From NCBI GenBank assembly GCA_026770585.1, contig MU646578.1, forward strand, positions 41,639 to 69,136: DNA of 27,498 nt. The letters are read 5' to 3'. Positions 451-21,851 of this stretch are shown piece by piece. The number at the start of each line of letters is the position of its first letter. The stretch's first letter is position 1. The DNA is from Baffinella frigidus. Taxonomy: Eukaryota; Cryptophyceae; Cryptomonadales; Baffinellaceae. The notes beneath the pieces were generated by a model that saw nothing but the letters and a program-made list of their open reading frames with translations, did not search any database and had not been told where the DNA came from. Both the position numbers and the translations under genes were made by a program.

Positions 451-483
451 CGCGAAACTGAAATGGAGATGGCAAAACTGAAG
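451..483 (+). CDS. Exon 1 (first recognised), coiled coil
   Basis: TTTCTCAG acceptor, then 11 codons reading RETEMEMAKLK, then a GTAACG donor. Phase 0 at both ends. The charged composition fits the following coiled-coil exons. Earlier exons probably exist outside the window or unrecognised within it. Confidence 0.5.
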
Positions 484-3400
484 GTAACGTACACCCTACA
501 CCCCAATCTCATCCCGTCAGGCATTTGATTTAAATGCTCCGGAATTCCCCAAATCAACGAAATTCACTACGCAAGTGGTCGCGTCCAGGCCTGGACGTGA
601 CTGATTTGGTCAGTTATGTAGTAAATTTCTTTGATTCGGGGAACTCAGAAGCATTTAAATCAAATTCCTGGTGGGATTAAATCCCAAACCCTGAAGCCAT
701 CTGCGGAGACGGCCAACCCCAAGGGGCCGTCCAGGCTGCAACCCCCCTGAACCATATACTCTCAAACCCAATCTTAAACCCTCAACCCTACAACCCTGAA
801 CCCTACACCAATCTTAAACCCTAAATCCTAATCCTAAACACGAAACCCTTAACCCTACACCCATCTTGAACCCTACACCCTAAATGAGGTGACCAAACGC
901 AAGGTCACTTTGCAAATAGGCTTATACCACACAGCGGGCTACGAAGGGATCTCCGGCCCGATTCTATCCACCTTTCCGTTACCTTATCCGTAGGAACCCT
1001 CTTATGTCCCTGCGCTGTTGCCTACCGTAGGGGCTTATGTCTTAACGCTTATGGGGTTTTCACGGAATGCCTTCGAAGCCCGCTGTGTGACGTACTGGAC
1101 AGACGCAGCATATGGCCCAGACTGCAAATGCTATATCACGTGCACGTTGCGTCCACCTCTCTCTCTCTCTCTCTCTCTCGTTCTGTCTTTCTCTCTCTCT
1201 CTCTCTCTTGTTCTCTCTCTCTCTCTCTCTCTCTGCTTTCTGTCTCTCTCTGCGGACATTTGCATGCGGGTATCTGGGTTCCCAAACCCGGCCATTTGTT
1301 GGACCCCAGACTCTAAACCCCAAACCCCAACCCCCCAACCCGAAAACAGGTGCGGCTTGCAAAGGCGCTGTCGGATAGAGACCGCAATGCGAAGATGCTC
1401 AGGCAACCCCTACACCCCAAACCCTTAACCCTAAACCCCAAACCCGGAACCTGGAACCCGGAACCCGGAACCCGGAACCCGGAACCCGGAACCCTAAGCC
1501 TGAAAAACTACAACTTAAACCCGAAAGCCCAAACCTCAAATCCTGAACCCCACACCCTAAACCCTAAACCCCAAACCCTAAACCCACAACCCCAAACCCC
1601 AAACCCTAAACCCTAAACCCTAAACCACAAACTCCAACCCCCAATAAACAGTACACAATTAACCATAAACCCTAAACCCCGAGCCTCCCTGTGCGCAGAG
1701 AGTCAGAGGAGAACCAAAAGAAGCACCTCACCGCGCTAGAAGCTCTCGATGAGGCCGCGACGACTGAGGCAGCCAAGGTCCATACCACCACCACACAGTG
1801 GAATACGGACCTTTCATCAAAAGTCAAGTTACCCTGTGAGTAGTTAACTTTAAGGAGTTTCTCATGGAAATTTGGTCACGTTACCGCTAAATCTAGGGGT
1901 CTCGAAACCCTCGTAGCCCACCGTGTGGACCCTCACAGCCTGAGCAAATCGTCGAATTTGAGGCCACGTATTTCCCTCGGAGGCCGCCGGATTCCGGCGT
2001 CCGTGGAGCTATTTTGCCTTGAGATCGAAAATCGAAAATCGTCGATTTGCTCAGGCTGTGAGGGTTGGTGGTAACCTGTTTAGGACATTCCTCCTAAACA
2101 CTGAAAGACTTTCCGAGGGACCGGTTTGTACCAGGCAGGGGCCGAAACCCGGCGCCTCGGGGCTGCCCCCCGGTACAAAAAGGTCCTACTAGTTGATAAA
2201 TAACTAGGCGCAGAAAGTCGATTAGGCACCCTGGTTGACCTTTCCGCGCTACCACTCGAGACTGGAAGAGGGAGTATTTTAAAAGTGGGGTTGTTAAATT
2301 TAGTACCAGTCACGGGCATGCTTGGTCACGTATCTCAAGTTATAACTTGAGATACGTGACCGAATGCCCCTATTTGTGTGAAAATTACTACACAATTTCC
2401 CCCTCCTTAACTTGTAACATAATGACTGTTTTAAAATAGTCCCACTTCTAGCCTCGAGCTGTAGAAGCTCTCGATGAGGCTCCGACGACTGAAGCCGCCA
2501 AGGTCCGTGCCCTGAATCCTAAACCCTGGCCCTCAACCCCGCCCGCCTCTCTCTCCCGCGCCCTCTTTACCGCTTGAATTGCCACCTGTTGACGATAAGA
2601 CAGTCACAACTCTCTTAACCAAAAACCTGTAACCCACAAAGGTCGTCTGCTGACACGGAAACACGCCTTTCCGCAGATCGCGACGGCCGCGCGCGGGGAC
2701 CTCTCCGTCGAGGCGCAGTGGCAGTTCACCATCGCCTCTCTCTCCCGCGCGCGCCGTGCGGGTCCCGAGGCGGGCCTTTCTCATCCTGAGGTGGGCCTGT
2801 CCGGTCCCGAGGCGGGCCCGTCCCATAATGAGGCGGGCCCGTTGGGGTCTAAGAAAGACGGTTTGGATGCGCGGGGAGCGGTCGTGGCGCTGGAGGCCCA
2901 GGTCGGCTGGACCTTACACCCTTCACCCTAAATCATACACCCTATACCTTAACCTCTACATCTGAACCCCGAAACCTGAAACCCGGAACCCAGAGCCCGG
3001 AACCCGAAACCCGAAACCCTCAACCGTGATCCCTGAACCCCACACCCTGCGATACTCTCTTCTCACCACCTCAAACCTTAAACTCCTGAACCAGGTCCTT
3101 AACTCCTGAACCTTAAACTCCTGAACCTCAACCTTGAACTCCTGAACCGTAAACCCCTACGCCAGGTTGGCGCGCTGGAGAGGGAGCTCGGAAAGGTGAT
3201 GCATGACCTGCGGACCCAGAAGAAGCACGCTCTTTACTACCTGAATTCGCGCGCTTTTTACTTCCGGAATTGCTGACGAGAAGACGGTCACGACTCCCTT
3301 AGTAAGTCACGGCTCCCTTAGTAAGTAACCCAAACCCTACACCAGATCGGCGCGCTGGAGAAGGAGCTGGGGAAGGTGATGCATGACTTGCGGACCGAGA

Positions 3401-6400
3401 AGAAGCACACGCTCGTGCAGGTCAACGGGGGGGGTAGGGTTAGGGGTTGAAACACCTGGAAGGTTCAGGGTGTAGGGTTCAGGCTTGCACCTGCACGAGC
3501 TGCTGGGTTGACGGTTAGGGGTTCAGGGTTGACGGTTAGGGGTTCAGGGTTGACGGTTAGGGGTTCACGGCGCACGGTGTAAGACTTGCGGACCAAGAAG
3601 AAGCACACGCTCAGGTGCCACCCGCGAACCCTCAACCCTGAACCCAGAAGAAGTTTCAACCCCGAACCCTGAAGCCTAAACCTTAAACCCACCCGCTCGT
3701 GCGAGTTCACGCCCACTGCGAAACTTTGTTGAAGTGAGTCAACCAAGTTGACTTAATGATCGCGAGAGCTCGGCTTACGCCTGATCACCGAACCCTAATC
3801 CCGCTCATCCCAAACCCCACACCTCAAGGAGCGTTTAAAGCCAAACCCTAAATCATAATCCATCATCCTAAACCCGATACCCCAAACTCGAAACCGCAGG
3901 ACCGGACGATCAGGCAGTACAAAGACGAGAAGGGAAGCACCCTGGAGCACGCCACTACACTGCTCAATCCCAAACCCGAAACCCAACCCCTACACCCTAC
4001 ACCCTACACCATACACCTACACCATACACCTTACACCCTACACCCTACACCCCACCCCCCCAACCCAACACCCCAAACCCGAAACCCGAACCGCAGGAAC
4101 GCTCAACCCTAAACCCTAAAAACCCCGCAGGAGCGGACGATCCGGCAGTACAAAGACGAAAAGGGCAGCACTCTGGAGCACGCCAAGATGCTACGCCTGC
4201 AGGCGAGTTACCCCGTACCACCATCGACTAACCTCATTTGATGCTGCATGTGTTCTATGCTGCGTGTGTATTCTCTGACGAGGCCTAAGTGTGTATTGTC
4301 TGACGCCAAGATGCTACGCCTGCAGAAGGAGGTCGAGGAGTTGACGGGCAAGCTCAACACCAAGAGCGAGATGGAGGTCCGAAACCCTAAACATCTGAAC
4401 CCTAAAACCTGTAAACCCCTAAACCTGGTGGCACCCGGGTCACATGAGGCAGCCCCTAGGAAGTCACATGAGGCAGCCCCTAGGAAGCCCCTAGGAAGCC
4501 CCTAGGAAGCCCCTACTAGGAAGCCCCTAGGTCACATGAGGCAGCCCCTAGGAAGCCCCTAGGAAGCGTTTTGTACGGGACTGGTTGTAGTGAGTAAGGT
4601 GCGGGGGGCGTACAATGGACACGTGGGGTTGAGGGAGCACGCGAAGATGCTACGTCTGCAGAAGGAGGTTGAAGAGCTGACGGGGAAGCTCCACACCAGG
4701 AGCGAGACGGAGGTCTGACACCCTAAAAATCTGAACCCTGGATCCTAGATCCCAGACCCCAGACTCTACACCTGAATTTTAACGTTAAGAACGAAGAGCT
4801 GACTGCGAAGCTCAACGCCAAGAGCGAGATAGAGGTCCGAATCTAAACCCTAGACCCTAAAATCTAAACCCTGAAATCTAAACCCTAGACCCTAAACCCG
4901 AGGAGCTTACTGGGTAGCTCAATCTCAAAAACGAGATGGTGGTTCGCGCGCAAACCCAGATTCGGGACCTGCGAACCCCTAAACCCTAAACCTTACACCC
5001 GAAACCCGAAACACTTAAGCGGAGCTGACTGGAAAGCTGAACACAAAGTGCAAGATGGCGGTGGGAAGCCTCAAAATCTATAACCTAGACCCTGGACCCT
5101 ACACCCAAGTGAAGTAGAAGAGGCTGTTCAAGAGCACTAGAAAATGCTGCTTGCCCGACGCACGCTCTCGATCCACACAGCGGGCTACGAAGGGATGTTC
5201 GGCCCATTTCGGGCCGAGTTTCCGTGACCTTATCCGTAGGAACCCCCCTATGTCCCTACGGGTTGCCTACCGTAGGGTCGTAGGTCTTATCGCTTAAGGG
5301 TTATTCAGAAATCCTTTCGTAATCCGCTGTGTGGGCGGGGGGCGCAACCACAGAATCGGGACCTGGAGGGCTCTCTCGCGAGCGACAAACTCTCAACTCT
5401 AAACTCTAAACCCTGAACCCTAAACCCCAAACCCTGCCAGGTGCGCGCGCAGAACCAGATACGCGAGCTGACAGGCGCTCTCGCGACTGCCTAACCCTAA
5501 ACCCTGAACCCCAAACCTCAACCCTAAAACCTGAACCCTAAACCCTAAACCCTAACCTCTAACCCAAGTACGCGCGCAGAACCAGAAACGGGTCCTCGCC
5601 AGCAACCAGCCTGGAGGGCACATTAGGGTATTTTGAGCATTCTTAAGTCAACACCCCTTGAGATGCTACCTTCCGGCGGTAGCACCGTGATGAATGGATC
5701 TGGTACACAAAGGTCTAATAAGTATTTTAGTGGTACACATCCTGTCAACTTTTGCGATAACGGGTTATTCGGGAATGGCCGCAAGTCCCCTCCAGGGTGG
5801 TTTTGCGAGCGCCAAACCCTAACCCCTGAGTCTTACACCCCACACCGCATCCCAGGTGCGCGCGCAGAACCAGATACGCGAGCTGACAGGCGCTCTCGCG
5901 ACTGCCAAACGCGACCTCTCGTCCCGCCGCAACCCCTCCCAGGTGGCTGCAAACCCCTAAGCCCAAACCCCGTAACCCTAAACCCTAAACCCTAAACTCG
6001 AAACCCTAAACCCTAAACCCTAAACCCTAGATTCAAACCCGTGTGTTTCCCTTTCGGATCATGTCCATACGTGACCTTTCTTCCCGACGGAACACCTTCC
6101 ATGTGACAGCCCCTAAACCACGCTAACCTAGGGCTAAATCACCCTGGACCCTTACCCCTAAACCCTAAACCCCAAACCCTAAACCCTGAACCCTCGCACT
6201 CAACCATCCTAAAGCAAACGCGACCTTTCTTCCTGCCGCAATCCGTCCCAGGTGACCGAAAACCCCTGCACCCCAAACCCCTAGAGCCTTATACTCTAAA
6301 CCTCTCTTCCTTCCTTTCAGATGATGTGTCGGCGAGGGGAGGAGACCGCTGAACCCTAACCGCTGCCGAGGGAGGACGGGACACAGTTTTAATGGGGTTT

Positions 6401-15400: not shown

Positions 15401-15761
15401 GCCCCCTAACCCCCTCAATCCTAAGCCCCCTAACCCCCTAACCCCGGGACCCCAACTGCGAAACCTGAAACCCCAAAGTGTTTATGATTGCTCATCATTT
15501 TGAACCAAATCCTACACCCTACACCCTAAACCCCAAACCCCAAACCCCAAACCCTAAACCCTAAACCTTAAACCCCATACCCCATACCCCAGACCCTCAA
15601 CCCTCAACCCTAAACCGCAATTGAGCACGCACGCCCTGATTCTCAGGTGCTCTGCGAGTCTCTCCCGTGCGCGTGGGCGCACGCCGACACCATCCCCTTT
15701 GTCGTCAAGAACGTCACCACTAAACCCTAACTCGAACGCATACCGACACACGAAACACTCC

Positions 15762-15798
<37 letters not shown>

Positions 15799-18700
15799 GT
15801 TCAACCTATATATCTATCTTTCTATCTATATATCTATACATACCTATCTATCTGTCTATCTATCTATCTATTTACGAAACGCTCACGCGAACGAAAACAC
15901 GGCAGGTGCTCCGCGAGTCTCTCCCGTGCGCGTGGGCGCACGCCGACACCATCCCCTCTCTCGTCAAGGACATCACTCCGGTGCGACCGCAAACCCTAAT
16001 CCCCGTCCCTGCACGCGAGCCCCCCCCCCTTTTCAGACCCAAATTTATGGTACCGATTGGGCCGTGGGTGCACGCCGACACCGTCCCCTCCGTCGTCAAA
16101 GCAATTCCTCCGGTGCGCACGCAAACCCTACCGTTTCCTCTTAATCTTTTCAACCAATTATTTTCTGAGAAATTCCCGTCCCTGCACGCGAGTTCCCCCC
16201 TTTCTCAGACCCAGATTCATGGTACCGATTGGGCCGTGGGCGCACGGCGGACACCATCCCATCTAAGACGTCGCTCCGGTCCATGTCCCACCACCTTTAG
16301 GGTCTAGGGTCCGGGGCTGACAATATCCCCTCGATTTATGCTTTCGGGTCTAGGGCGGACACCGTCCCTTTGGTCTTCAAAGACGTCGTGCAGGTCCATG
16401 CCCCACCACCCGAGTCAGCCGAAATTTTGCGTCAAAACACGCCCCACCGGAACCCTAAACCCGCAACCTGAAACAGGTGCGGGTGTGGTACACCCTGAAC
16501 CCTAAACAAACCTCAAACCTTCAGCCCTAAATCCGCACCCCCGAACCCTATCCTCTAAACCTGCAACCCGGAACAGGTGCGGGCGTGGTATATCAAGTTC
16601 ACAGCGCTTGGGTGGTTCGGCATGATCTAAATCCGAAGCATGAACCCTGAACCCTAAACCCACCGCCCTAGTATTTAAACGCTTAACTCGCAACCCGCAA
16701 CCCTAAACAAACGTCAAACCCTAGACCCTAAACCCTAAACGCTAAAACTTTAACACACCCGCAACCCTAAACCCCAAGCTTCAAACAGGTGCGGGCACGG
16801 TACATCAAGTTCACAGCGCTCGGGTGGTTCGGCATGGGCGCCGGCCTCAATTTCTTCCAGGTGCGTCCTAGACACACATACGTGCTTCCTAGACACACGG
16901 ATTTCAGGGCTGGTGAAGCAGTCGTGTCCGCAAACAGTCGTATTGAGGAAGCTGCACATCAAGTTCACCGCGCTCGGGTGTTTCGGCATGAATGCTGGCC
17001 TCAACTTCTTCCAGGTAAAGAGACACACACCACTAAGTGGGCTACGCGGGTTTCGTTGACCCCGGATTCCGGTGTGTTACGTGACCAATTTGCATAAAAC
17101 AATCCTGCAACTTAATCGTCTTCAGGTAAGTTGACTTATGATGAAAGGTTCGTAGTCCACCGCGTGGAATCCACCTCCGCAAGAACTTCGTCCCTCGCAA
17201 CCTCAACAGCCTGGTACTAGCCACGCAGTGGACTACGAAGAGATTCCGTGAATAACCCACAAGTGGATAATCCATAGAAACTACGGTAGTCGTTCGGCCT
17301 GGGCGCCTCCAGGTGCCTCCCTAAACCCTCAACTTTTCCAGGTGCCTCCCTAGACCCTAAACCCTGAACCCTAAACCCTAAACCCTCAACCCTAAACCCT
17401 CAACCCTAAACCCTAGTGCTAGACACAGTTCTATATTGAGGAGGTGTGTGCGTCCACTACGGGCGGTTTGAGGAAGCGGGTTTGGCTTGAGGAAACCTGC
17501 GTGTCTGTAGCGGTGCTGAGGAAGCGTGTGTAGGTCCACAACTTCTTCCAGGTAAAGCGACACACACCACTCGGTGGGCTACGATGGTTTCGTTAACCCT
17601 GGATTCCAGGGTGATACGTGACCAATTTGCATAAAAAATATCCGTAAAGTTAATTGTCTTCAGGCAAGTTCACTTTTGATGAAAGGTTCGTAGTCCACCG
17701 TGTGGATTGAGGAAGTGCTCGTGGGTTGAGGAAGCGTCCGTGTCCGCAACGGGCGTGTTGAAGAGGCGGTCGTGTCCGCAACAGTCGTATTCAGGAGGCC
17801 GCCGGGCGTGTTGAGGAAGCGTTCGCGTAGCCACCCGGTGGGCTACGAGGGTTTCGTTGACCCCGGATTCCGGGTGTTACGTGACCAAGTTGCATTAGAA
17901 AAATCCTTAAAGTTAATTCTCTTCGGGTGAGTTGACTTTTGATGAAAGGTTCGTAGTCCACCGTGTGGGGAAGCTCGTGTCCGCGAACAGGTGCTGTTCG
18001 ATACTGTCGGACCCAGCCCCGCAACTCTAACCCCGCAACTCTAACCCCGCAACTCCAAACCCCATCAGGTGCGGGCGCAGGCCGTGGGGCCGGACGCGAT
18101 GCAGGCTGAGCATCAGTGTTCCCGGATTGAGGAAGCGTGTTCGGGTATTGAAGACCAAACAGCGGGCTATCAAGGGGATTTCGGCCCATTTCGGGCCCAC
18201 TTTCCGTTACCTTATCCGTAGGAACCCCCCTATATCCCTACGGGTTGCCTACCGTAGGGTCGTATGTCATAACGCTTGTGGGTTATTCACGAATCCCTTC
18301 GTAATCCGCTGTGTGGGTGTCCGTGTCCGCAACCATCGGATTGAAGAAGCGTTCGGACAGGTGCGGGCGCAGGCCGTGGGACGCGATGCGTGTTGAGGAA
18401 GCGTTCGTGGGTGTTGAGGAAGCACTCGTGTCCGTATTGAGGAAGTGTTCGTGTCCTGGAACATGTGCGAGGTCAGGTGGCTCAGTTGACTTTGGGGACC
18501 ATGCAAAGTTAAGTGGCTCAGTCGACTTTGGGGACCATTCAGGTGCGGGCGCAAGCCGCGGGGCCAGACGCGACGCAGCCTCGTGACAGTCAACTAAGCT
18601 ACTTAACCTTGCATGGTCCCCAAAGTCAACTGAGCCACTTAACCTCGCACCTGCTCCAGGACACGAGCACTTCCTCAATACGGACACGAGTGCTTCCTCA

Positions 18701-19682
18701 ATACCCACGAGTTGACTTTGGGGACGATGCAGGTGCGGGCGCAGGCCGCGGGGGCGGACGCGACGCAGGCTGAGCTGGTCTCTCTCAAGCGCGACCTCGG
18801 CGACGTTCTCGCCGAACGGTACCGGAGCAAATCTGCGTTGTCAAGACCCCTGATTTGTACCACAGGTTGCCGGATTCCGACGACCTCCAGTACAAATCAA
18901 GGGGATAAAAAAGGCAATTTGCTCCCCCTTTCAGGGCTGGTGGTACATACCTAAACCCTAGCTCTGTCTCGGTCTATTTGGGCGACACAGTTTGGTGCGC
19001 CCGGGCGTTTTCCCGCTCCAAAGTTGACGGATTTGTACCGCAGACCCAGCGAGTTGACTTGTCAATAGTCGGTGAACCCGAGTGAGGCTGAGGTGGTCTC
19101 TCTCAAGCGCGACCTCGGCGACGTTCTCGCAGAACGGTGCATACCTAAACCCTAAACCCTAAACCCTAAACCCTAGACCCTAAACCCTAAACCCTAAACC
19201 CTAAACCCTAAACCCTAAACCCTACACTAGAAATGAAGAACCCTAAACCCTAAACCCTACCCAAGGCCGAACGGACGAAACCCGGAACCCAGAACCCGAA
19301 ACTCGAAACCCGAAACCCAACCCCGAAGCCCGAAGCCCCTAAATGCGTTTTTGGATCAGACGCGGAAGGAGGCCAAGGGCTTCCAGCGCGAACCCTCACC
19401 ACTTAGCAGCCACCGAGGGCTTCACGGATACAGTCCATCTAAACGATTTGTACTGGAATCTTATCCAGTTGCATTGGATTCGAACCGCGTTTTCCCCGGA
19501 TATCCGGGGGGAAAGGAACTCATATCCGGGGGGAAAGGAAGTCGGCCGCTGCGAAGTGGGAGGACGCCGCACGTCGCCGAAACCCAAACCCCGAAATCCG
19601 ACACCCGAACACCAGGAACCTGAAGAAGAACCAATTCGCGTGGACGGCGTCGGCAAGCGCCGCGGCGCTCGCTCGCGAGGCT
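451..19682 (+). CDS. Multi-exon gene: coiled-coil protein with a discoidin (F5/8 type C) domain
   Basis: This is the overall gene span; the exons are listed separately. I chained exons by AG acceptors, GT (rarely GC) donors, phase agreement and peptide continuity. At least 23 exons join without a frame break. The N-terminal two thirds are rich in Glu, Lys, Arg, Leu and Ala with heptad-like spacing, as in a coiled coil. Next comes a segment with VDVDG, then a discoidin-type carbohydrate/lipid-binding fold, then further coiled coil. True start and stop were not found: the first supported exon begins mid-coil, and exons after 19.1 kb are uncertain. Introns are filled with CCCTAAA-like heptamers, foldback elements and partial exon copies. 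Discoidin domains usually act in binding at surfaces or membranes. The cellular role here is unknown, and I see no signal peptide or membrane segment. The domain call is strong. The exact gene model needs RNA evidence. Confidence 0.72.
511..677. mobile_element. Foldback element (MITE-like), 167 bp
   Basis: Imperfect terminal inverted repeats: ATCCC-TCAGG...GATTTAAATGC at the left, GCATTTAAATC...CCTGGTGGGAT at the right. The inner arms (AAATCAACGAAATTCACTAC and GTAGTAAATTTCTTTGATT) match the motif CAACGAAATTTACTACACAAAT seen again near 19.74, 22.19 and 22.6 kb. No protein is encoded. Confidence 0.75.
927..1089. mobile_element. Foldback family 1, full copy A
   Basis: Ends are CCACACAGCGGGCTACGAAG and CTTCGAAGCCCGCTGTGTG. 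The interior has TTACCTTATCCGTAGGAACC, CCTATGTCCCT, GCCTACCGTAGGG and a CTTAACGCTTATGGG block shared with all other copies. Length is about 162 bp with no coding capacity. It is a MITE-like non-autonomous element; the superfamily is not determined because no clear target-site duplication is visible. Confidence 0.9.
1157..1250. repeat. CT/GA microsatellite
   Basis: Mostly perfect CT dinucleotides with a few interruptions (CGTT, TTGTT). Apparent SLSLSL or RERERE proteins here are readings of this repeat. Confidence 0.97.
1350..1402 (+). CDS. Exon 2, coiled coil, GC donor
   Basis: AACAG acceptor; reads VRLAKALSDRDRNAKML and ends in phase 2 before GCAACC, so a GC donor is proposed. The split Arg codon (AG + A) is completed by exon 3, which supports the boundary. 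Confidence 0.6.
1437..1620. repeat. CCCGGAA and CCCTAAA/CCCCAAA heptamer arrays
   Basis: Positions 1443-1492 hold tandem CCCGGAA units. Positions 1540-1625 hold CCCTAAA and CCCCAAA units. Neighbouring units are more alike than units of other arrays, so the variant was amplified on the spot. Confidence 0.85.
1699..1777 (+). CDS. Exon 3, coiled coil
   Basis: GCGCAG acceptor. One base completes the Arg codon of exon 2, then ESEENQKKHLTALEALDE and AATTEAAK follow, ending at a GTCCAT donor in phase 0. A 3' partial copy lies at 2463-2502. Confidence 0.72.
1791..1928 (-). mobile_element. Foldback family 2, copy a (reverse orientation)
   Basis: Begins CCACACAGTGGAATACGGAC and CTTTCATCAAAAGTCAAGTTACC, the reverse complement of the right end of the family 2 copies at 17-18 kb. 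It ends with CTCGTAGCCCACCGTGTGG. It abuts the next foldback at 1929. Confidence 0.82.
1929..2071. mobile_element. Foldback family 6, copy a
   Basis: Left arm ACCCTCACAGCCTGAGCAAA-TCGTCGA pairs with right arm TCGTCGATTTGCTCAGGCTG-TGAGGGTT. The AAATCGTCGA core and GAGGGTTGGTGG end recur at 21.47-21.64 and 21.85-21.99 kb. Confidence 0.85.
2077..2101. other. Short hairpin
   Basis: TGTTTAGGA and TCCTAAACA form a 9-bp perfect stem around a CATTCC-like loop. The function is unknown; it lies in an intron. Confidence 0.6.
2324..2361. repeat. 38-bp perfect palindrome
   Basis: Two exact arms (GGTCACGTATCTCAAGT and its complement) meet at a TATA centre. Pairing continues imperfectly outward. The lack of a loop suggests the centre of a young foldback or an end-to-end junction. 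Confidence 0.88.
2463..2502 (+). pseudogene. 3' stub of exon 3
   Basis: Reads EALDEAPTTEAAK and keeps the GTCCGT donor, but lacks the 5' half and acceptor of exon 3. It lies downstream of the complete exon, matching the polarity seen at other exons. Confidence 0.8.
2677..2901 (+). CDS. Exon 4, long exon with GPEAG-type repeat
   Basis: CCGCAG acceptor, 75 codons, GTCGGC donor, phase 0 at both ends. It starts IATAARGDLSVEAQWQF. About four degenerate 12-residue units follow (GPEAGLSHPEVGLS, GPEAGPSHNEAGP), encoded by a GGTCCCGAGGCGGGCC minisatellite, and it ends ARGAVVALEAQ. The largest exon of the gene. A related minisatellite lies in inverse orientation at 20.85-21.01 kb. Confidence 0.68.
3166..3232 (+). 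pseudogene. 5' stub of exon 5
   Basis: CCAG acceptor, then VGALERELGKVMHDLR and TQKKHAL, after which homology to exon 5 is lost before its donor. A neighbouring segment at 3241-3333 repeats part of the exon 4 upstream intron (2558-2640). Confidence 0.75.
3346..3420 (+). CDS. Exon 5, coiled coil
   Basis: ACCAG acceptor; IGALEKELGKVMHDLRTEKK and HTLVQ, 25 codons; GTCAAC donor. Phase 0 at both ends. Flanked by a 5' stub at 3166 and a 3' stub at 3583. Confidence 0.78.
3436..3570 (-). repeat. Heptamer-like array in inverted orientation
   Basis: TTAGGGGTTCAGGGTTGACGG repeats stand with the G-rich strand on +, opposite to nearly all other arrays in this gene. This suggests a small inversion inside the intron. 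Confidence 0.75.
3583..3614 (+). pseudogene. 3' stub of exon 5
   Basis: Reads LRTKKKHTL, then CAG and a GTGCCA donor; the acceptor-side half of exon 5 is missing. Confidence 0.72.
3900..4103 (+). pseudogene. Two 5' stubs of exon 6a
   Basis: Positions 3900-3953 read DRTIRQYKDEKGSTLEHA after a CGCAG acceptor and then lose homology. Positions 4097-4103 keep only a few bases after another CCGCAG. Between them (3985-4053) lies a CCCTACA array. Confidence 0.72.
3985..4053. repeat. CCCTACA / ACCATACACC array
   Basis: Tandem CCCTACA heptamers with interspersed ACCATAC variants, a locally amplified telomere-like variant. Confidence 0.85.
4131..4202 (+). CDS. Exon 6a, coiled coil, GC donor
   Basis: CCGCAG acceptor, ERTIRQYKDEKGSTLEHA and KMLRLQ (24 codons), then GCGAGT, a plausible GC donor. 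The copy at 4636 runs through this junction without a break into KEVEELTGKL, so 6a and 6b look like two halves of one former exon. Confidence 0.62.
4326..4376 (+). CDS. Exon 6b, coiled coil
   Basis: An internal CTGCAG acts as acceptor; KEVEELTGKLNTKSEME, 17 codons; GTCCGA donor, phase 0. The bases before it (4303-4325) repeat the end of exon 6a (AKMLRLQ), so splicing CAG to CAG would restore the uninterrupted sequence without doubling it. Confidence 0.6.
4439..4568. repeat. CCCCTAGGAAG minisatellite with TCACATGAGGCAG units
   Basis: About eight copies of an 11-bp CCCCTAGGAAG unit are mixed with three TCACATGAGGCAG units. It is intronic and unrelated to the telomere heptamer. Confidence 0.9.
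4636..5065 (+). pseudogene. Four 3' stubs of exon 6, one fused to exon 7 sequence
   Basis: 4636-4712 reads EHAKMLRLQKEVEELTGKL then HTRSETE with donor GTCTGA. 4793-4834 reads EELTAKLNAKSEIE with donor GTCCGA. 4900-4974 reads EELTG, a stop, LNLKNEMV, and then continues without an intron into VRAQTQIRDLR, which belongs to exon 7. 5020-5065 reads AELTGKLNTKCKM. CCCTAAA-like heptamers separate them. Confidence 0.75.
5173..5334. mobile_element. Foldback family 1, full copy B
   Basis: CCACACAGCGGGCTACGAAG to TTCGTAATCCGCTGTGTGG, 162 bp, same interior as copy A. Its right end directly abuts a partial copy of exon 7 (5342). Confidence 0.92.
5342..5619 (+). pseudogene. Three partial copies upstream of exon 7
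   Basis: 5342-5392 reads AQPQNRDLEGSLASD and has lost its acceptor next to foldback copy B. 5441-5491 reads VRAQNQIRELTGALATA after CCAG, then stops. 5568-5619 reads VRAQNQKRVLASN. The last two are 5' stubs. Confidence 0.78.
5620..5830. other. Intron stretch without heptamers
   Basis: Mixed-composition DNA with TTTGCGATAACGGGTTATTC-GGGAATGGCCGCAAG and GTGGTTTTGCGAGCGCC. No exon or clear inverted repeat is recognised. Confidence 0.4.
5856..5942 (+). CDS. Exon 7, coiled coil
   Basis: CCCAG acceptor; VRAQNQIRELTGALATAKRD then LSSRRNPSQ, 29 codons; GTGGCT donor; phase 0 at both ends. It is the only full-length copy among at least six related segments. Confidence 0.8.
6069..6251 (+). pseudogene. 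Two 3' stubs of exon 7
   Basis: 6069-6102 reads RDLSSRRNTFH. 6216-6251 reads KRDLSSCRNPSQ and keeps the CAG/GTGACC donor. Both lack the 5' two thirds of the exon. Confidence 0.75.
6321..6354 (+). CDS. Possible small exon or stub
   Basis: A strong acceptor (CTCTCTTCCTTCCTTTCAG) is followed by MMCRRGEETAEP and then a stop with no donor. It may be a 5' stub of an unrecognised exon or a skipped cryptic exon. Confidence 0.3.
6600..6670 (+). CDS. Exon 8, coiled coil
   Basis: TTCCCAG acceptor; EPDAVSAREAARESLQAALS then DLQ and a split Arg codon (CG), phase 2; GTCCGC donor. A 3' stub at 6713-6731 keeps LSDFPR-like sequence with the same donor position (GTTCGC). Confidence 0.72.
6745..6935. repeat. 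CGCCGCCACAACCCTCAACCCTCAT tandem repeat
   Basis: About three copies of a roughly 57-bp unit containing GCGCCGCCACAACCCTCAAC and CCCTCATCCCTAACCCCGAA. A higher-order repeat has formed out of heptamer-like sequence. Confidence 0.85.
6967..7036 (+). CDS. Exon 9, coiled coil
   Basis: CCCACAG acceptor. The first base completes the Arg codon from exon 8, then AHGECLRLRELAEKHLASS and KAAQ follow, ending at GTAAGC in phase 0. The phase match with exon 8 supports both calls. Confidence 0.78.
7105..7155 (-). repeat. Inverted heptamer segment
   Basis: GTTTCTGGTTTCGGATTTCGG and TTTAGGGTTTAGGG stand here on +, opposite to the surrounding CCCTAAA arrays. This suggests a local inversion. Confidence 0.7.
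7174..7320 (+). pseudogene. Two 3' stubs of exon 9
   Basis: 7174-7236 reads GECLRLRELAEKHLAASKAA then Q, with donor GTAAGC. 7291-7320 reads KHLAASEAAQ with a GC donor (GCAAGC). Each lacks more of the 5' side than the one before. Confidence 0.8.
7388..7509. mobile_element. Foldback element, 122 bp
   Basis: About 40-bp arms: GAGACCGGACCGTTAGAACC-GTCTGTCAACTCCTGTCTCA at the left and the nearly exact complement ending GGTCCGGTCTC at the right, with a short AT-rich loop. Intronic and non-coding. Confidence 0.92.
7528..7597. repeat. CCCGAGA / CCCGAAA heptamer array
   Basis: Three CCCGAGA units are followed by about six CCCGAAA units, again a locally homogenised variant. Similar CCCGAAA runs are at 7255-7289 and 8996-9033. 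Confidence 0.88.
7604..7654 (+). pseudogene. 5' stub of exon 10
   Basis: CGCAG acceptor, AEADAAKARAGTLSA, then a stop with no donor. It precedes the complete exon 10. Confidence 0.8.
7663..7795. mobile_element. Foldback element, about 133 bp
   Basis: Ends GACGAGTATTTAATTT and GAATTAAATGCTCGTC are inverted repeats. Inner TTTAAATA palindromes lie near the left end. It sits between the exon 10 stub and the complete exon. Confidence 0.7.
7811..7872 (+). CDS. Exon 10, coiled coil
   Basis: CGCAG acceptor; AEADAAKARAGALSTEIKNL plus a split Arg codon (CG), phase 2; GTCCCA donor. The same donor position is kept in four downstream stubs. Exon 11 starts with the G that completes Arg. Confidence 0.78.
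7947..8310 (+). pseudogene. Four 3' stubs of exon 10
   Basis: At 7947-7980, 8055-8081, 8134-8166 and 8281-8310, ALSTEIKNLR-like sequence is followed each time by GTCTCA. The reading frame has decayed in some (NNP, GIKNIR, SAEINNLR). CCCGAAA-rich DNA separates them. Confidence 0.85.
8430..8478 (+). pseudogene. 5' stub of exon 11
   Basis: TCTAG acceptor, SSSGEQVAWLQGEWASQ, then heptamers. The 3' half and donor are missing. Confidence 0.8.
8537..8612 (+). CDS. Exon 11, coiled coil
   Basis: CCCTAG acceptor supplied by a heptamer unit. The first base closes the Arg codon, then SSSGEQVARLQAELDAAVNR and TFEVQ, GTATCC donor, phase 0. It is the only complete copy among five. Confidence 0.8.
8707..9051 (+). 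pseudogene. Three 3' stubs of exon 11
   Basis: 8707-8721 keeps only TFQVQ with GTGCTG. 8858-8916 reads EEARLQGELDAVVNRTLEVQ with GTATCA. 9034-9051 reads RTFEVQ with GTAACA. Order by length is not strictly decreasing, but all keep the donor side. Positions 8722-8850 are unrecognised sequence. Confidence 0.8.
9099..9275. repeat. CCCTAAA telomere-type arrays
   Basis: Long runs of perfect CCCTAAA with some CCCCAAA at 9099-9182, and again at 9220-9265. C-rich strand is on the coding strand. Confidence 0.95.
9285..9348 (+). pseudogene. 5' stub of exon 12
   Basis: GTCAG acceptor; ERCVEQQQRLMSLRRGATRH, then divergence. The 3' third of exon 12 is absent. Confidence 0.8.
9393..9432. repeat. CCCTACA heptamer array
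   Basis: Six perfect CCCTACA units. Confidence 0.92.
9508..9600 (+). CDS. Exon 12, coiled coil
   Basis: CCGCAG acceptor; ERCVEMQRRLKSLRRGAIDT then ERERANLQREL, 31 codons; GTGCGT donor; phase 0 at both ends. Confidence 0.8.
9670..9844 (+). pseudogene. Two 3' stubs of exon 12
   Basis: 9670-9693 reads RANLQREL with GTGCGC. 9801-9844 reads ADTARERANLQGEV with GTGCAC. Confidence 0.8.
9860..10180. other. Intron stretch, no feature recognised
   Basis: Mostly non-heptamer DNA. Three closely spaced GGTACAA motifs lie at 10000-10030, and CGTCAACTTAAGGTAAC occurs near 10157. No exon was identified. Confidence 0.35.
10192..10239 (+). pseudogene. 5' stub of exon 13
   Basis: TGCAG acceptor; VVASEPVKAQETRVLS, then homology ends before the donor. 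Confidence 0.8.
10425..10478 (+). CDS. Exon 13, coiled coil
   Basis: GCTAG acceptor; VVAAEPVKAQETRALTHE, 18 codons; GTCAAC donor; phase 0 at both ends. Confidence 0.76.
10551..10760. repeat. CCCTAAA telomere-type array
   Basis: About ten consecutive perfect CCCTAAA units (10551-10618), then decayed units to about 10760. Confidence 0.95.
10784..10862 (+). pseudogene. Two 5' stubs of exon 14
   Basis: 10784-10797 keeps only VS-like bases after CACAG. 10820-10862 reads VSVLLGQHGDTLLL after TTCAG. The stubs lengthen toward the complete exon. Confidence 0.8.
10964..11051 (+). CDS. Exon 14
   Basis: CACAG acceptor; VSVLRGQHRDALLLLTKYEH then VIRVLSERL plus one base of a Gly codon, phase 1; GTAACC donor. 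Four 3' stubs follow. Confidence 0.82.
11160..11500 (-). repeat. Heptamer arrays in inverted orientation around an exon 14 stub
   Basis: GGGTTTCGG, TTTAGG and GGGTTTGGGG stand on +, while the exon stub inside (11299-11369) keeps + orientation. Inverted intron pieces therefore flank a non-inverted exon piece. Confidence 0.7.
11623..11714 (+). mobile_element. Foldback family 2, truncated copy f
   Basis: CCACACGGTGGGCTACGAGC and ACCCCGGAATCCGGGGGCTACG match the left half of family 2. The right half is lost. Confidence 0.7.
11838..11988. repeat. CCCCAAA heptamer arrays
   Basis: CCCCAAA units at 11841-11877 and 11944-11967, with CCCTGAA units at 11905-11926. Confidence 0.85.
11997..12036 (+). 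pseudogene. 5' stub of exon 15
   Basis: TGCAG acceptor, GLATDLSGLPTNI-like peptide with small changes, then heptamer DNA. Confidence 0.75.
12130..12222 (+). CDS. Exon 15
   Basis: CGCAG acceptor. It completes the Gly codon of exon 14, then LATDVSGLPTSLKSLLPESP and RAKKAAAAA, ending in phase 1 at GTTCCA. Likely the end of the coiled coil and a low-complexity linker. Confidence 0.8.
12313..12382 (+). pseudogene. 3' stub of exon 15
   Basis: LPTNIKSLLPESPRTKKAAA with the GTTCCA donor; the 5' part is lost. Preceded at 12250-12312 by a family 3 foldback fragment (GTTTGTACCGCACGCCCAGC). Confidence 0.82.
12509..12545 (+). pseudogene. 5' stub of exon 16
   Basis: AGCAG acceptor then SRKAGEQEDPAY in the exon 16 frame. 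It is cut off by foldback family 3 at 12546. The preceding 80 bases repeat those before exon 16. Confidence 0.75.
12546..12682 (+). mobile_element. Foldback family 3, copy b
   Basis: CTCTATTTCAGTCTATTTAGGC at the left, GTTGACGGATTTGTACCGCG and CCCAGCGTGTCAACTTAAGA inside, GGCAGAGC at the right. It parallels the copies at 13688 and 18959. Confidence 0.78.
12769..12982. mobile_element. Foldback element with nested hairpin
   Basis: Outer arms GGGTTAGCTCAGGG and CCCTCAGGTCTAGCGTAGCTAACCC. Inner arms around CAATCAAAAGTTGAC and GTTGACTTTTGCGATTG. A perfect 10-bp hairpin with AAAA loop is at 12874-12897. Confidence 0.72.
13086..13140 (+). CDS. Exon 16
   Basis: CAG acceptor; GSREAGEHEDPAYTAHEP, starting with two bases that close the Gly codon of exon 15 and ending with two bases (AG) of a Ser codon; GTCTCT donor. 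Phase agrees on both sides. Confidence 0.65.
13386..13440 (+). pseudogene. 5' stub of exon 17
   Basis: CCAG acceptor, MDVDGTFFSKINPTPRF, diverging from exon 17 after VDG. Confidence 0.72.
13541..13670 (+). CDS. Exon 17, start of the discoidin domain
   Basis: ACCAG acceptor; closes the Ser codon, then VDVDGHLLLEDPPYGAIFSA, SKALVHTIDDSTGSFWLLPD and ASE; GTCGAA donor in phase 0. The DDSTGSFWLL segment sits where F5/8 type C domains carry the D-G/D-x-S-x-x-FW motif, shortly before the VDLG strand, which follows in exon 18. Confidence 0.85.
13688..13824 (+). mobile_element. Foldback family 3, copy c, with 7-bp flanking repeats
   Basis: Ends TAGCTCTGTCTCAGTC and GTGACTCAGAGCTA are inverted repeats, and GAACTTA stands directly outside both ends. 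Interior GTTGACGGTTTTGTACCACA and CAACTTGAGAATAGTCGG are shared with copies at 12546 and 18959. Confidence 0.82.
13920..14080. repeat. Mixed heptamer array
   Basis: CCCTAAA, CCCCAAA, CCCGAAA and CCCTAGA units within the intron between exons 17 and 18. Confidence 0.8.
14079..14148 (+). mobile_element. Foldback family 2, copy b (right half)
   Basis: AAAATCCGTCAAGTTAATTG, then TTCAGGTAAGTTGAC, then TCGTAGTCCACCGTGTGG. The left half is missing. It directly precedes the exon 17 stub. Confidence 0.82.
14149..14196 (+). pseudogene. 3' stub of exon 17
   Basis: TIDDSTGSFWLLPDAS, nearly identical to the end of exon 17, followed by TTTGGGG instead of a donor. Positions 14240-14330 repeat 13822-13910. 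Confidence 0.85.
14380..14429 (+). CDS. Exon 18, discoidin VDLG strand
   Basis: ACCCAG acceptor; GSFVVDLGARRTVTGF plus two bases of Arg; GTTCAC donor, phase 2. VDLG-x-x-RTVTG is the hallmark central strand of F5/8 type C domains. A tiny 3' stub (TTCCG/GTAACG) is at 14484-14489. Confidence 0.85.
14500..14660 (+). other. GC-rich open segment before the sequence gap
   Basis: One frame reads VDHRKPGGRPFDSPAGRLVN then ARVTGHADAEANCP with a possible GAG/GTGACT donor. Joining exon 18 directly to exon 19 gives a better domain, so this is probably not coding. An 18-bp perfect palindrome CGCGTGACCGGTCACGCG is at 14571-14588. Confidence 0.35.
14661..14970. other. Assembly gap (310 N)
   Basis: Unknown bases within the intron between exons 18 and 19. 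The stated length may be an estimate. Open frames spanning it are artefacts. Confidence 1.
14971..15090. repeat. CCCCAAA / CCACAAA heptamer array
   Basis: Heptamer variants run directly from the gap edge, so the gap probably arose from unassembled heptamer repeat. Confidence 0.85.
15094..15148 (+). CDS. Exon 19, discoidin domain
   Basis: GCTAG acceptor; the first base closes the Arg codon of exon 18, giving FRLKNTRNNGWKNRGTREFA at the join; GTACCC donor, phase 0. The NT-x-N...RGT-x-x-F pattern is typical of discoidin domains after the VTG strand. Confidence 0.87.
15180..15326. repeat. CCCGAAA / CCCGACA array
   Basis: CCCGAAA-like units, then three tandem ACCCGACA units at 15272-15297. Confidence 0.8.
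15329..15379 (+). CDS. Exon 20, discoidin domain
   Basis: ACCAG acceptor; VSVTSLDPEIESPDWEE, 17 codons; GTACTC donor, phase 0. The sequence after the donor resembles the start of exon 21 (VLNASL against VLRESL), so the exons may have separated from a once continuous exon. Confidence 0.72.
15647..15716 (+). pseudogene. Near-complete upstream copy of exon 21
   Basis: TCTCAG acceptor; VLCESLPCAWAHADTIPFVV and KNV, then no donor. It could serve as an alternative exon only if an unseen donor is used. Confidence 0.7.
15771..15872. repeat. TATC/ATCT tetranucleotide microsatellite
   Basis: Tandem CTAT units with interruptions in the intron between the two exon 21 copies. Confidence 0.97.
15906..15980 (+). 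CDS. Exon 21, discoidin domain
   Basis: GGCAG acceptor; VLRESLPCAWAHADTIPSLV then KDITP, 25 codons; GTGCGA donor, phase 0. It corresponds to the variable stretch before the last strand of the domain. Confidence 0.78.
16002..16393 (+). pseudogene. Three 3' stubs of exon 21
   Basis: 16053-16112 (VHADTVPSVVKAIPP, GTGCGC), 16228-16278 (ADTIP, frame decayed, GTCCAT) and 16353-16393 (ADTVPLVFKDVVQ, GTCCAT). The first two share 60 bp of upstream sequence (CCCGTCCCTGCACGCGAG... ATTGGGCCGTGGG), so stub plus flank was duplicated again. Confidence 0.8.
16477..16626 (+). pseudogene. Two 5' stubs of exon 22
   Basis: 16477-16490 reads VRVWY. 16577-16626 reads VRAWYIKFTALGWFGM. Both follow AACAG acceptors and lack the donor. 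The stubs lengthen toward the complete exon. Confidence 0.85.
16789..16860 (+). CDS. Exon 22, end of the discoidin domain
   Basis: AACAG acceptor; VRARYIKFTALGWFGMGAGL then NFFQ, 24 codons; GTGCGT donor, phase 0. RYIKFTALGWFG-x-GAGLNFF is the classical last strand of discoidin domains (compare RYVRFVALSWYG...GGGL in family members). Confidence 0.88.
17030..17167 (+). mobile_element. Foldback family 2, copy c
   Basis: CCACTAAGTGGGCTACG...TTTCGTTGACCCCGGATTCC at the left; TTCAGGTAAGTTGACTTATG and TCGTAGTCCACCGCGTGG at the right. Confidence 0.88.
17221..17258 (-). mobile_element. Foldback family 1, end remnant
   Basis: CCACGCAGTGGACTACGAAG then AGATTCCGTGAATAACCC matches the reverse complement of the right end of family 1. 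Confidence 0.7.
17340..17416. repeat. CCCTAAA / CCCTCAA array
   Basis: Alternating CCCTAAA and CCCTCAA heptamers. The rest of 17169-17560 holds GAGGAAGCG-type repeats (GTGTTGAGGAAGCGT) that recur at 17.7-18.4 kb. Confidence 0.8.
17567..17705 (+). mobile_element. Foldback family 2, copy d
   Basis: CCACTCGGTGGGCTACGATG to TCGTAGTCCACCGTGTGG, 139 bp, about 85-90% like copies c and e by eye. The internal TTCAGGCAAGTT has C in place of T in the GTAAGT block. Confidence 0.9.
17706..17830. repeat. TTGAGGAAGCG(T/C)..GTGTCCGCAAC repeats
   Basis: Degenerate direct repeats of TTGAGGAAGCGTTCGTGTCC-GCAACAGTCG type. They recur at 16.92-16.95, 17.44-17.53, 18.12-18.15 and 18.33-18.46 kb. Confidence 0.8.
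17831..17968 (+). mobile_element. Foldback family 2, copy e
   Basis: CCACCCGGTGGGCTACGAGG to TCGTAGTCCACCGTGTGG, 138 bp. The interior has GACCCCGGATTCCGGGTGTT and TCTTCGGGTGAGTTGAC. Confidence 0.92.
18069..18110 (+). pseudogene. 5' stub of exon 23 (first)
   Basis: ATCAG acceptor; VRAQAVGPDAMQAE, then divergence. Second and third 5' stubs lie at 18361-18391 (VRAQAVGRDA) and 18543-18583 (VRAQAAGPDATQ). Confidence 0.82.
18155..18316. mobile_element. Foldback family 1, full copy C
   Basis: CCAAACAGCGGGCTATCAAG to TTCGTAATCCGCTGTGTGG, 162 bp, standard interior. Confidence 0.9.
18406..18709. repeat. Large inverted duplication around an exon 23 stub
   Basis: About 100-bp arms (CGTGGGTGTTGAGGAAGCAC... 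TTGACTTTGGGGACCATGC and its complement to 18709) enclose the 5' stub of exon 23 at 18543. This is host-derived repeat sequence, not one of the short element families. Confidence 0.85.
18733..18818 (+). CDS. Exon 23, coiled coil after the discoidin domain
   Basis: TGCAG acceptor; VRAQAAGADATQAELVSLKR then DLGDVLAE plus two bases of Arg; GTACCG donor, phase 2. Three 5' stubs precede it and 3' stubs follow. Confidence 0.78.
18824..18925. mobile_element. Foldback element, 102 bp, just past the exon 23 donor
   Basis: GGAGCAAAT...CCCCTGATTTGTAC pairs with GTACAAATCAAGGGG...ATTTGCTCC. It starts six bases after the exon 23 boundary and might hide or present the donor in RNA structure. Confidence 0.82.
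18959..19086 (+). mobile_element. Foldback family 3, copy d
   Basis: TAGCTCTGTCTCGGTCTATT, GTTGACGGATTTGTACCGCA and TAGTCGGTGAACCCGAGTGAG as in the copies at 12546 and 13688. The right end merges with the following exon 23 stub. Confidence 0.82.
19087..19280 (+). pseudogene. 3' stubs of exon 23 and CCCTAAA array
   Basis: 19087-19136 reads AEVVSLKRDLGDVLAE with a GTGCAT donor. 19265-19273 keeps only GCCGAACGG. Between them (19143-19224) is a near-perfect CCCTAAA array. Confidence 0.82.
19349..19391 (+). CDS. Possible exon 24
   Basis: LDQTRKEAKGFQRE is plausibly coiled coil, but neither phase nor donor is convincing. A related fragment (GAGGGCTTCACGG) follows at 19420. CCCGAAA units precede it. 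Confidence 0.35.
19494..19542. repeat. Palindrome and direct repeat of ATATCCGGGGGGAAAGGAA
   Basis: CCCCGGATATCCGGGG is a 16-bp palindrome, and ATATCCGGGGGGAAAGGAA occurs twice in direct orientation. Confidence 0.8.
19634..19682 (+). CDS. Possible exon 25
   Basis: Reads FAWTASASAAALAREA with a GTGACG donor after CTAG. Partial copies with the same donor side are at 19785-19806 (ALAREA-like, GTTCGT) and 20384-20409 (ATALAREA, GTGCGT). This again gives a complete segment followed by 3' stubs. Confidence 0.45.
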
Positions 19683-20943: not shown

Positions 20944-21015
20944 TAGAAGGTGGGCCCGCCTCGGGACGGATGAGCCCGCCTCGGGACGGATAGGCCCGCC
21001 TCGGGACAGATCCGC
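20855..21015. repeat. GCCCGCCTCGGGACGGAT minisatellite
   Basis: Three tandem units of GCCCGCCTCGGGACGGAT at 20950-21010 and a related CCGAGGCGGGCCTGTCCGCC at 20863. It is the reverse complement of the minisatellite that encodes the GPEAG repeats of exon 4. Confidence 0.85.
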
Positions 21016-21676: not shown

Positions 21677-21840
21677 AACCCCCACACCACACAGCGGGCT
21701 ACGAAGGGATTTTCGGCCCGATTCGGGCCACCCTACCGTTACCTTATCCGTAGAAACCCCCCTATGTCCCTACGGTAGTGCCTACCGTAGGGCCTAGAGA
21801 TGATCCACGCATTCAAAAAGCAACTTGTAGTCCACTGTGT
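21677..21840. mobile_element. Foldback family 1, full copy D
   Basis: CCACACAGCGGGCTACGAAG to CAACTTGTAGTCCACTGTGT, 164 bp. The right end has diverged toward the family 2 type (GTAGTCCAC), linking the two families. Confidence 0.88.
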
Positions 21841-21851
21841 ATGGCGTGGGA

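Follow-up and report, generated by a model that had tools for sequence, protein, structure and literature searches.

The window analysed here is a 27,498-nt stretch of contig MU646578.1 of the unicellular Arctic alga Baffinella frigidus (assembly GCA_026770585.1, positions 41,639 to 69,136). Protein comparison agrees with a source in this cryptophyte or a very close strain: a kinesin piece of the assembly (L053) has 100% identity, across the 64% covered, with a protein annotated as B. frigidus, and Guillardia theta reaches 65%. The plus strand of the window carries a gene that spans positions 451..19280, or reaches approximately 19.4 kb when the last exon is included, and that we modelled by hand as 25 exons with AG acceptors and GT or GC donors (GC at exons 2 and 6; exon 24 is without a donor in the model). 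The 5' end of this gene was not found within the modelled window. By eye, the predicted product is a long coiled coil followed by an F5/8 type C domain, and the latter is matched by PF00754 over exons 19-22 with an E-value of 9.6e-8, a match that scores better than the Pfam cut-off requires. Our choice of full exons is supported because exons 19-22 (six exons with five junctions) join in frame with clean AG and GT ends, giving exactly the protein that was scanned. No homologues of the window protein were found by a method that reaches only relatives sharing short words and in which the best 7995 candidates were scored, and a plasmid collection contained no relative of it. Exon 4 (2677-2901) includes an in-frame GPEAG-like minisatellite with a 21-nt period, and its reverse complement recurs at 20952-21007. 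The introns of the gene are laden with partial copies of its own exons (Table 1).

Table 1. Modelled features of the window, with the partial exon copies found beside each exon. Percentages are identities between copy and exon; 5' and 3' indicate the end of the exon that a copy retains.
Feature	Position	Strand	Copies or evidence
Gene with copy-laden introns	451..19280	+	exon model, PF00754 match and copy search; exon 24 lies just past 19280
Exon 3	1699..1777	+	downstream 3': 2462-2506 (91%)
Exon 5	3346..3420	+	upstream 5': 3155-3228 (89%); downstream: 3583-3612 (97%), 6 nt short of exon end, scored internal
Exon 6	4131..4202	+	upstream 5': 3894-3954 (92%)
Candidate gained intron, 123 nt, GC-AG	4203..4325	+	3' end identical to the final 23 nt of exon 6
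Exon 7	4326..4376	+	whole exon: 4650-4724; downstream 3': 4792-4841, 4899-4946
Exon 7 3' part joined straight to exon 9 5' part, no intron	4899..4971	+	77% over 73 nt, E 4.4e-11
Exon 9	5856..5942	+	upstream 5': 4941-4971 (81%), 5437-5495 (98%), 5563-5590 (89%); downstream 3': 6215-6263
Exon 10	6600..6670	+	downstream 3': 6713-6748
Exon 11	6967..7036	+	downstream 3': 7174-7245 (92%), 7289-7328 (82%)
Exon 12	7811..7872	+	upstream 5': 7596-7645; downstream 3': 7945-7990, 8059-8090, 8131-8176, 8281-8322
Exon 13	8537..8612	+	upstream 5': 8418-8468; downstream 3': 8707-8723, 8863-8922, 9031-9054
Exon 14	9508..9600	+	upstream 5': 9283-9346 (tandem unit 222 nt); downstream 3': 9669-9698, 9805-9848
Exon 15	10425..10478	+	upstream 5': 10190-10231 (93%)
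Exon 16	10964..11051	+	upstream 5': 10817-10863; downstream 3': 11131-11157 (93%), 11298-11378 (91%), 11545-11615 (89%), 11715-11797 (86%)
Exon 17	12130..12222	+	upstream 5': 11990-12036; downstream 3': 12311-12390
Exon 18	13086..13140	+	upstream 5': 12497-12546
Exon 19 (F5/8C domain start)	13541..13670	+	upstream 5': 13377-13435; downstream: 14149-14197, 2 nt short of exon end
Exon 21	15906..15980	+	upstream 5': 15644-15717 (93%); downstream 3': 16063-16124 (82%)
Exon 22	16789..16860	+	upstream 5': 16471-16492, 16572-16624; downstream 3': 16956-17016, 17327-17354
Exon 23	18733..18818	+	upstream 5': 18066-18111, 18358-18380, 18531-18581; downstream 3': 19085-19138
Second-gene exon (candidate model)	25960..26045	-	upstream: three 5' copies; downstream: one 3'-only copy and two stopping 4 and 7 nt short

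To list these copies we compared each of the 25 exons, extended by 12 nt per side, with the window by blastn (E ≤ 0.03, at least 14 exon bases, plus strand). The search yielded 55 exon/copy pairs, 51 of which lie in the introns adjacent to their own exon. Those 51 comprise 19 upstream copies that retain only the 5' end of the exon, 27 downstream copies that retain only the 3' end (one of them, the match of exon 6 at 4303-4325, is really the left flank of exon 7), four internal copies, one whole-exon copy, and none with the reversed arrangement. One-ended copies adjoin at least one side of 18 of the 25 modelled exons. The first-pass annotation had claimed a fixed polarity, with upstream copies keeping the 5' part and downstream copies the 3' part, and all 46 one-ended copies in the window agree with it. 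Among the four non-adjacent pairs, one is an exon-6 tail inside the next copy, and the other three arise because the coiled-coil exons 12 and 13 resemble and match each other; of these three, one is formally a downstream 5'-only copy but sits inside exon 13. Orientation is also strongly skewed, with 53 direct matches in the window against 6 inverted ones, five of which are internal. The chance level at E ≤ 0.03 was 2 matches in the reversed window, 4 in kinesin loci (20.9 kb) and 7 in other loci (60 kb), and at E ≤ 1e-4 it was 0, 0 and 1, respectively. An initial blast with 40-nt flanks and loose scoring gave 298 matches, many of them from telomere-like flanks, and was replaced by the stricter search. 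The side-specific polarity of the copies in the window is real.

Exon 22, previously singled out as a ladder, has the structure described for it: two partial copies upstream and, beyond the full exon, a longer copy followed by two tails at 17327-17354 and 17536-17553, the last of which has an E-value of 0.08 and so falls outside the E ≤ 0.03 cut. For the two exons searched genome-wide, the copies are also local. When exon 16 (88 nt) was searched against the 382 Mb assembly of 1364 contigs, it matched in five places including itself, all within 1 kb and with the expected polarity (bases 1-44 upstream; bases 17-88, 25-88 and 17-88 downstream). Exon 21 (75 nt) matched only itself and its upstream copy. 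Both genome-wide counts are lower bounds, as known weaker copies such as the downstream copy of exon 21 were missed.

A tabulation of exons against their own introns across the genome, suggested by the first-pass annotation, was carried out on a sample of genes. Searching the genome for kinesin domains produced 45 matches, of which we examined 33 in sets of 12 and 21. Two of the first 12 were judged to be copies rather than exons, leaving ten exons in five genes, whose ends were set by hand from the motor-domain matches after we had viewed an unscored duplication map of the loci. These ten exons have 13 upstream 5'-only copies, 10 downstream 3'-only copies and 6 internal ones, with no reversed or whole-exon copies, and 8 of the 10 have copies. 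For the further 21 exons the ends were fixed by a nearest-AG/nearest-GT rule (the cores of L048, L049 and L050 were trimmed by hand for stop codons). Here we found 13 upstream 5'-only and 5 downstream 3'-only copies, again none reversed and none whole, as well as internal copies on the plus (6) and minus (1) strands. One-ended copies accompany 8 of these 21 exons; the other 13 have none in the surrounding sequence, which is mostly about 700 nt per side. Altogether 41 of 41 one-ended kinesin copies have the expected polarity (23/23 at hand-set and 18/18 at rule-bounded exons). The tabulation thus contains no reversed copy at 31 kinesin exons, but in the window's minus-strand gene it contains one exception: a near-full-length upstream copy of the candidate exon scores as upstream 3'-only and breaks the rule.

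Nine dynein exons were also examined. At one of them (194-227 in L054) the boundary rule placed an end inside a telomere-like array, so we excluded this exon. It produced well over 100 rows, five of them downstream 5'-only; these rows are a telomere-repeat artefact. Seven of the eight usable dynein exons are without convincing copies (three weak internal matches in L055, with E-values of 0.010 to 0.016, were counted as none), and the eighth is flanked by two conforming copies (2/2), 5' upstream and 3' downstream, with one internal copy in addition. A myosin search gave four matches. The partial-copy pattern is widespread in the gene sample but uneven between genes.

The window and the kinesin genes together provide 87 one-ended copies on 51 exon sides, 21 of which have two or more copies. 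The exon-derived part of a copy is 15-88 nt long (median 48), with 75-100% identity to the exon (median 89%) and an offset of 61-914 nt from it (median 246). The copies had been described as a staircase of stubs whose length order is not strict. That wording was right that there is no strict order, but it understated the case, for length order is absent altogether: the nearer copy is longer in 20 pairs and shorter in 23, with 12 ties. What survives of the staircase is an order of similarity, the nearer copy being closer to the exon in 40 pairs against 14, with one tie (permutation p = 0.001). By set, the order holds in 21 of 26 window pairs (p = 0.004) and 19 of 28 kinesin pairs (p = 0.07), though the copy closest of all to the exon also resembles it most in no more than 11 of 21 groups, where 8.3 are expected. 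The breaks in exons among the 46 window copies are spread across the exon, at fractions from 0.10 to 0.95. We read the ladder around an exon as one of time, with older copies farther out.

We think it likely that the copies are relics of serial local tandem duplications, each across one splice site. The duplicated segment would begin or end within an exon and reach into the adjoining intron, either upstream or downstream, and the product would retain one intact exon together with a second copy that is missing one exon end and hence one splice site. The spliceosome would ignore a copy with one splice site, by exon definition, so that it could be carried neutrally, whereas a copy of the whole exon would be spliced in and removed. 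Since nearer copies are more similar to the exon, we read the series as repeated strikes on the intact exon, with older copies moved outward: each new event would hit the intact exon again, pushing the earlier copies away from it and lengthening the intron step by step. Repeat-rich intron sequence outside the copies probably gains and loses bases fast, which would hide the intron part of older units. An origin of the copies from spliced mRNA (cDNA) was ruled out for most of them, as intron-less junction copies are few and many units include intron flank.

For 78 of the 87 copies the whole putative unit lies inside the available sequence. Homology covers at least 60% of the unit length in 21 of these 78, compared to 1 of 74 controls made of random adjacent segments, and in 20 of the 21 the cover is clearly above the share contributed by the exon (the remaining one, kinesin C138, is nearly all exon part). 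Three of the four downstream copies of exon 12 are tandem over at least 60% of the unit, for example, and the copy of exon 18 lies within a longer intron-exon duplication, 12426-12546 / 13003-13123, of 121 nt at 92% identity. Across the 21 tandem units, mismatches number 93 in 978 aligned columns of exon-derived sequence and 398 in 2713 columns of the remainder, where gaps are also numerous. The 1.5-fold excess outside the exon part is what one would expect where both copies drift in the intron but, within the exon, one is constrained and the other drifts.

The first-pass annotation had proposed tandem duplication with one breakpoint in the exon and the other in the flanking intron. Direct orientation, adjacency, locality at the two exons searched genome-wide and the 21 tandem units speak for the duplication and its exon break, but an intron break is not borne out for every copy. 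Cover is at least 0.15 above the exon share in 32 of the 78 units; in the other 46, homology outside the exon-derived part amounts to under 15% of the unit, although some of these 46 have exon parts that are 93-100% identical. Among 44 upstream copies, 24 lose recognisable homology at most 5 nt from the acceptor, against a chance median of 3, which is nearer than breaks placed randomly in the intron would lead one to expect; 21 of 42 downstream copies lose it at most 8 nt from the donor. For those copies a second break deep in the intron is therefore unsupported. The same two features favour a rival explanation, patch-type repair of staggered breaks, in which 40-80 nt across a splice site would be duplicated around inserted filler (a telomere-like repeat, a microsatellite or a mobile element) with no long tandem unit. 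An exact 23-nt repeat at exons 6 and 7, which flanks other sequence on both sides, is in keeping with it too, and telomere-like sequence lies within 14 nt of 22 of the 46 broken edges, against a background of 33%. That enrichment is weak, however, and the dynein locus L054 is rich in such arrays (95 CCCTAAA) while its usable exons are without copies; the case for telomere repeats as the cause of the breaks is likewise weak. Because tandem homology extends through most of the unit in 21 of 78 cases, and exon 18 shares intron as well as exon sequence with its copy, we consider patch-type repair unlikely as the explanation, if the least unlikely of the alternatives.

Kinesin locus L050 offers both support and a difficulty. 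Its three upstream copies, which share 94 to 100% identity with the exon, belong to alignable units that follow one another. Two dead copies in this locus, however, are identical at all 59 exon-derived bases, although divergence in the remainder of the unit is much greater. To judge from these alignments, drift alone is insufficient as an explanation. Patch-type repair or local gene conversion may have contributed to the copies. Over L050:1-809 as a whole, three successive kinesin-intron units have exon-derived parts that are 95-100% alike and a diverged remainder, possibly through gene conversion from the exon.

The reasoning that a duplication leaves one intact exon and so passes selection had also been put forward, and only part of it stands. 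Polarity is a matter of geometry and is not by itself evidence of selection, because any tandem duplication over one exon edge yields the same polarity. The scarcity of whole-exon copies is more informative. There is one such copy in the plus-strand gene of the window (of exon 7) and none at the 31 kinesin exons, whereas about 15 would be expected beside the 21 tandem units under uniform placement. Were the duplicated segments short patches, there would be no deficit. If the unit is taken to equal the spacing, the expected whole-exon share is 0.54 for the 46 window copies. Exon definition offers the simplest reading: any copy having both splice sites would be included by splicing and lost, whereas those having one would be passed over. 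With placement assumed to be uniform, the shortage of whole-exon copies may point to a splicing filter.

As had been remarked before, exon 6 does not follow the scheme. The reason appears to be that a single ancestral exon was split into exons 6 and 7 by the 123-nt intron that ends with a repeat of the end of exon 6. This intron contains an in-frame stop if read through. We searched all 24 exon-exon junctions for intron-less copies and found convincing ones at 6|7 and 7|9, the latter being the copy at 4899, which carries a stop. A third, at 20c|21, is weak (of the 19 nt that follow exon 20c, 13 match the beginning of exon 21). It is probable that exons 6, 7 and 9 used to adjoin directly; the intron that now separates exon 6 from exon 7 may be newly gained. 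These junctions, together with GT directly after the AG at the start of 9 of the 25 exons, would fit a second rival, intron birth by the Rogers model: ancestral exons were longer, new introns arose where coding sequence containing AG|GT was duplicated, and the stubs would be leftover coding ends. As an account of the copies this seems quite improbable to us. Few junctions show the expected signature, the listed upstream flanks contain no end of a previous exon except in the copy at 4941, and many units include intron flank.

We find it very unlikely that selection maintains the stubs for a function, be it as regulatory elements, as alternative terminal exons or as decoys for splicing. Their exon parts are nearly gap-free, with 2 gaps compared to several hundred outside, though blast favours ungapped matches, and they can be more alike than their flanks; however, similarity falls off in copies farther away, a stop is present in at least one of them (the 4899 copy), and the number of one-ended copies ranges from 0 to 6 per exon, with many exons having none. 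An assembly artefact, from unresolved haplotypes or collapsed repeats, is hardly credible even though this is a draft assembly with gaps and the window has one N run (310 bases at 14661-14970), since copies and exons differ by a median of 11%, polarity is consistent in genes on different contigs, and the nearest listed copy is 464 nt from the N run.

Several known processes resemble serial duplication across one splice site. Tandem duplication of whole exons within genes is a known process that is likewise local and intragenic, but the copies here are partial and whole-exon ones are scarce. Tandem duplications have reportedly been described at the repair of staggered breaks in plant genomes by Vaughn and Bennetzen and by Schiml et al. 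Such repair is a possible source of short tandem duplications with filler; we know of no description of polarised exon copies in introns in those studies, and such copies are the feature seen here. In a potato RdRp gene, a single duplication across an intron-exon boundary made an intron (PMC4974935). That was one event in one gene, forming a new intron, whereas here there appear to be many serial events per gene, on both sides of exons, with putatively silent copies. PMC4974935 also describes intron creation of the Rogers type, in which an AGGT-bearing coding segment is duplicated; the intron between exons 6 and 7, with its 23-nt repeat, shares this geometry, but most copies in the window lie in existing introns and create none. 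A single tandem event across a splice site is therefore already published (PMC4974935), and for mass, age-ordered accumulation we found no account in the titles and abstract openings searched. That search covered literature on duplication, exon fragments, intron gain, telomere-like intron repeats and Baffinella, with most subscription journals outside its scope, and no polarised partial exon copies appear in the titles or abstract openings.

Growth of introns is usually ascribed to transposons and slippage. We propose, tentatively and at not quite an even chance, that serial tandem duplications, each spanning a single splice site, are a major driver of intron growth in this cryptophyte and now and then give rise to a new intron, that the flanks of exons, because only copies short of one splice site survive, are a time-ordered record reading out the exon-definition rule, and that the process helps explain a nuclear genome several times the size of that of Guillardia theta. 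The genome of Baffinella sp. CCMP2293 is 534.5 Mb, 6.1 times that of G. theta, and the main text of the paper reporting it contains no word beginning with "intron" (PMC9756366). Graded relics of exons could make rates, break positions and a splicing filter measurable within one genome. For genome annotation, partial exon copies can mislead gene finders.

The window contains three other kinds of repeat. Telomere-like CCCTAAA arrays in the window introns mostly have the C-rich strand in the sense orientation (135 vs 6). The same bias is seen in the 24 kinesin loci L029-L052 (180 vs 12), 17 of which are sense-major and none antisense-major, with 7 ties. CCCTAAA and its commonest variants contain neither AG nor GT, whereas the reverse-complement array has both, and the strand bias may reflect removal of cryptic splice sites. 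A dispersed MITE-like repeat of about 160 nt, with CACAGCGG...CCGCTGTG-like ends, occurs at 926-1089, 5173-5335, 18155-18317, 21687-21849 and 24069-24231; its members in the window are 62-89% alike in ungapped comparison, and it is abundant in the genome (40 of 2857 first-look candidates were scored). Finally, there are long near-perfect inverted repeats (92-99%) with short spacers, possibly foldback elements, at 18405-18527 / 18588-18710, 24260-24476 and 25632-25843.
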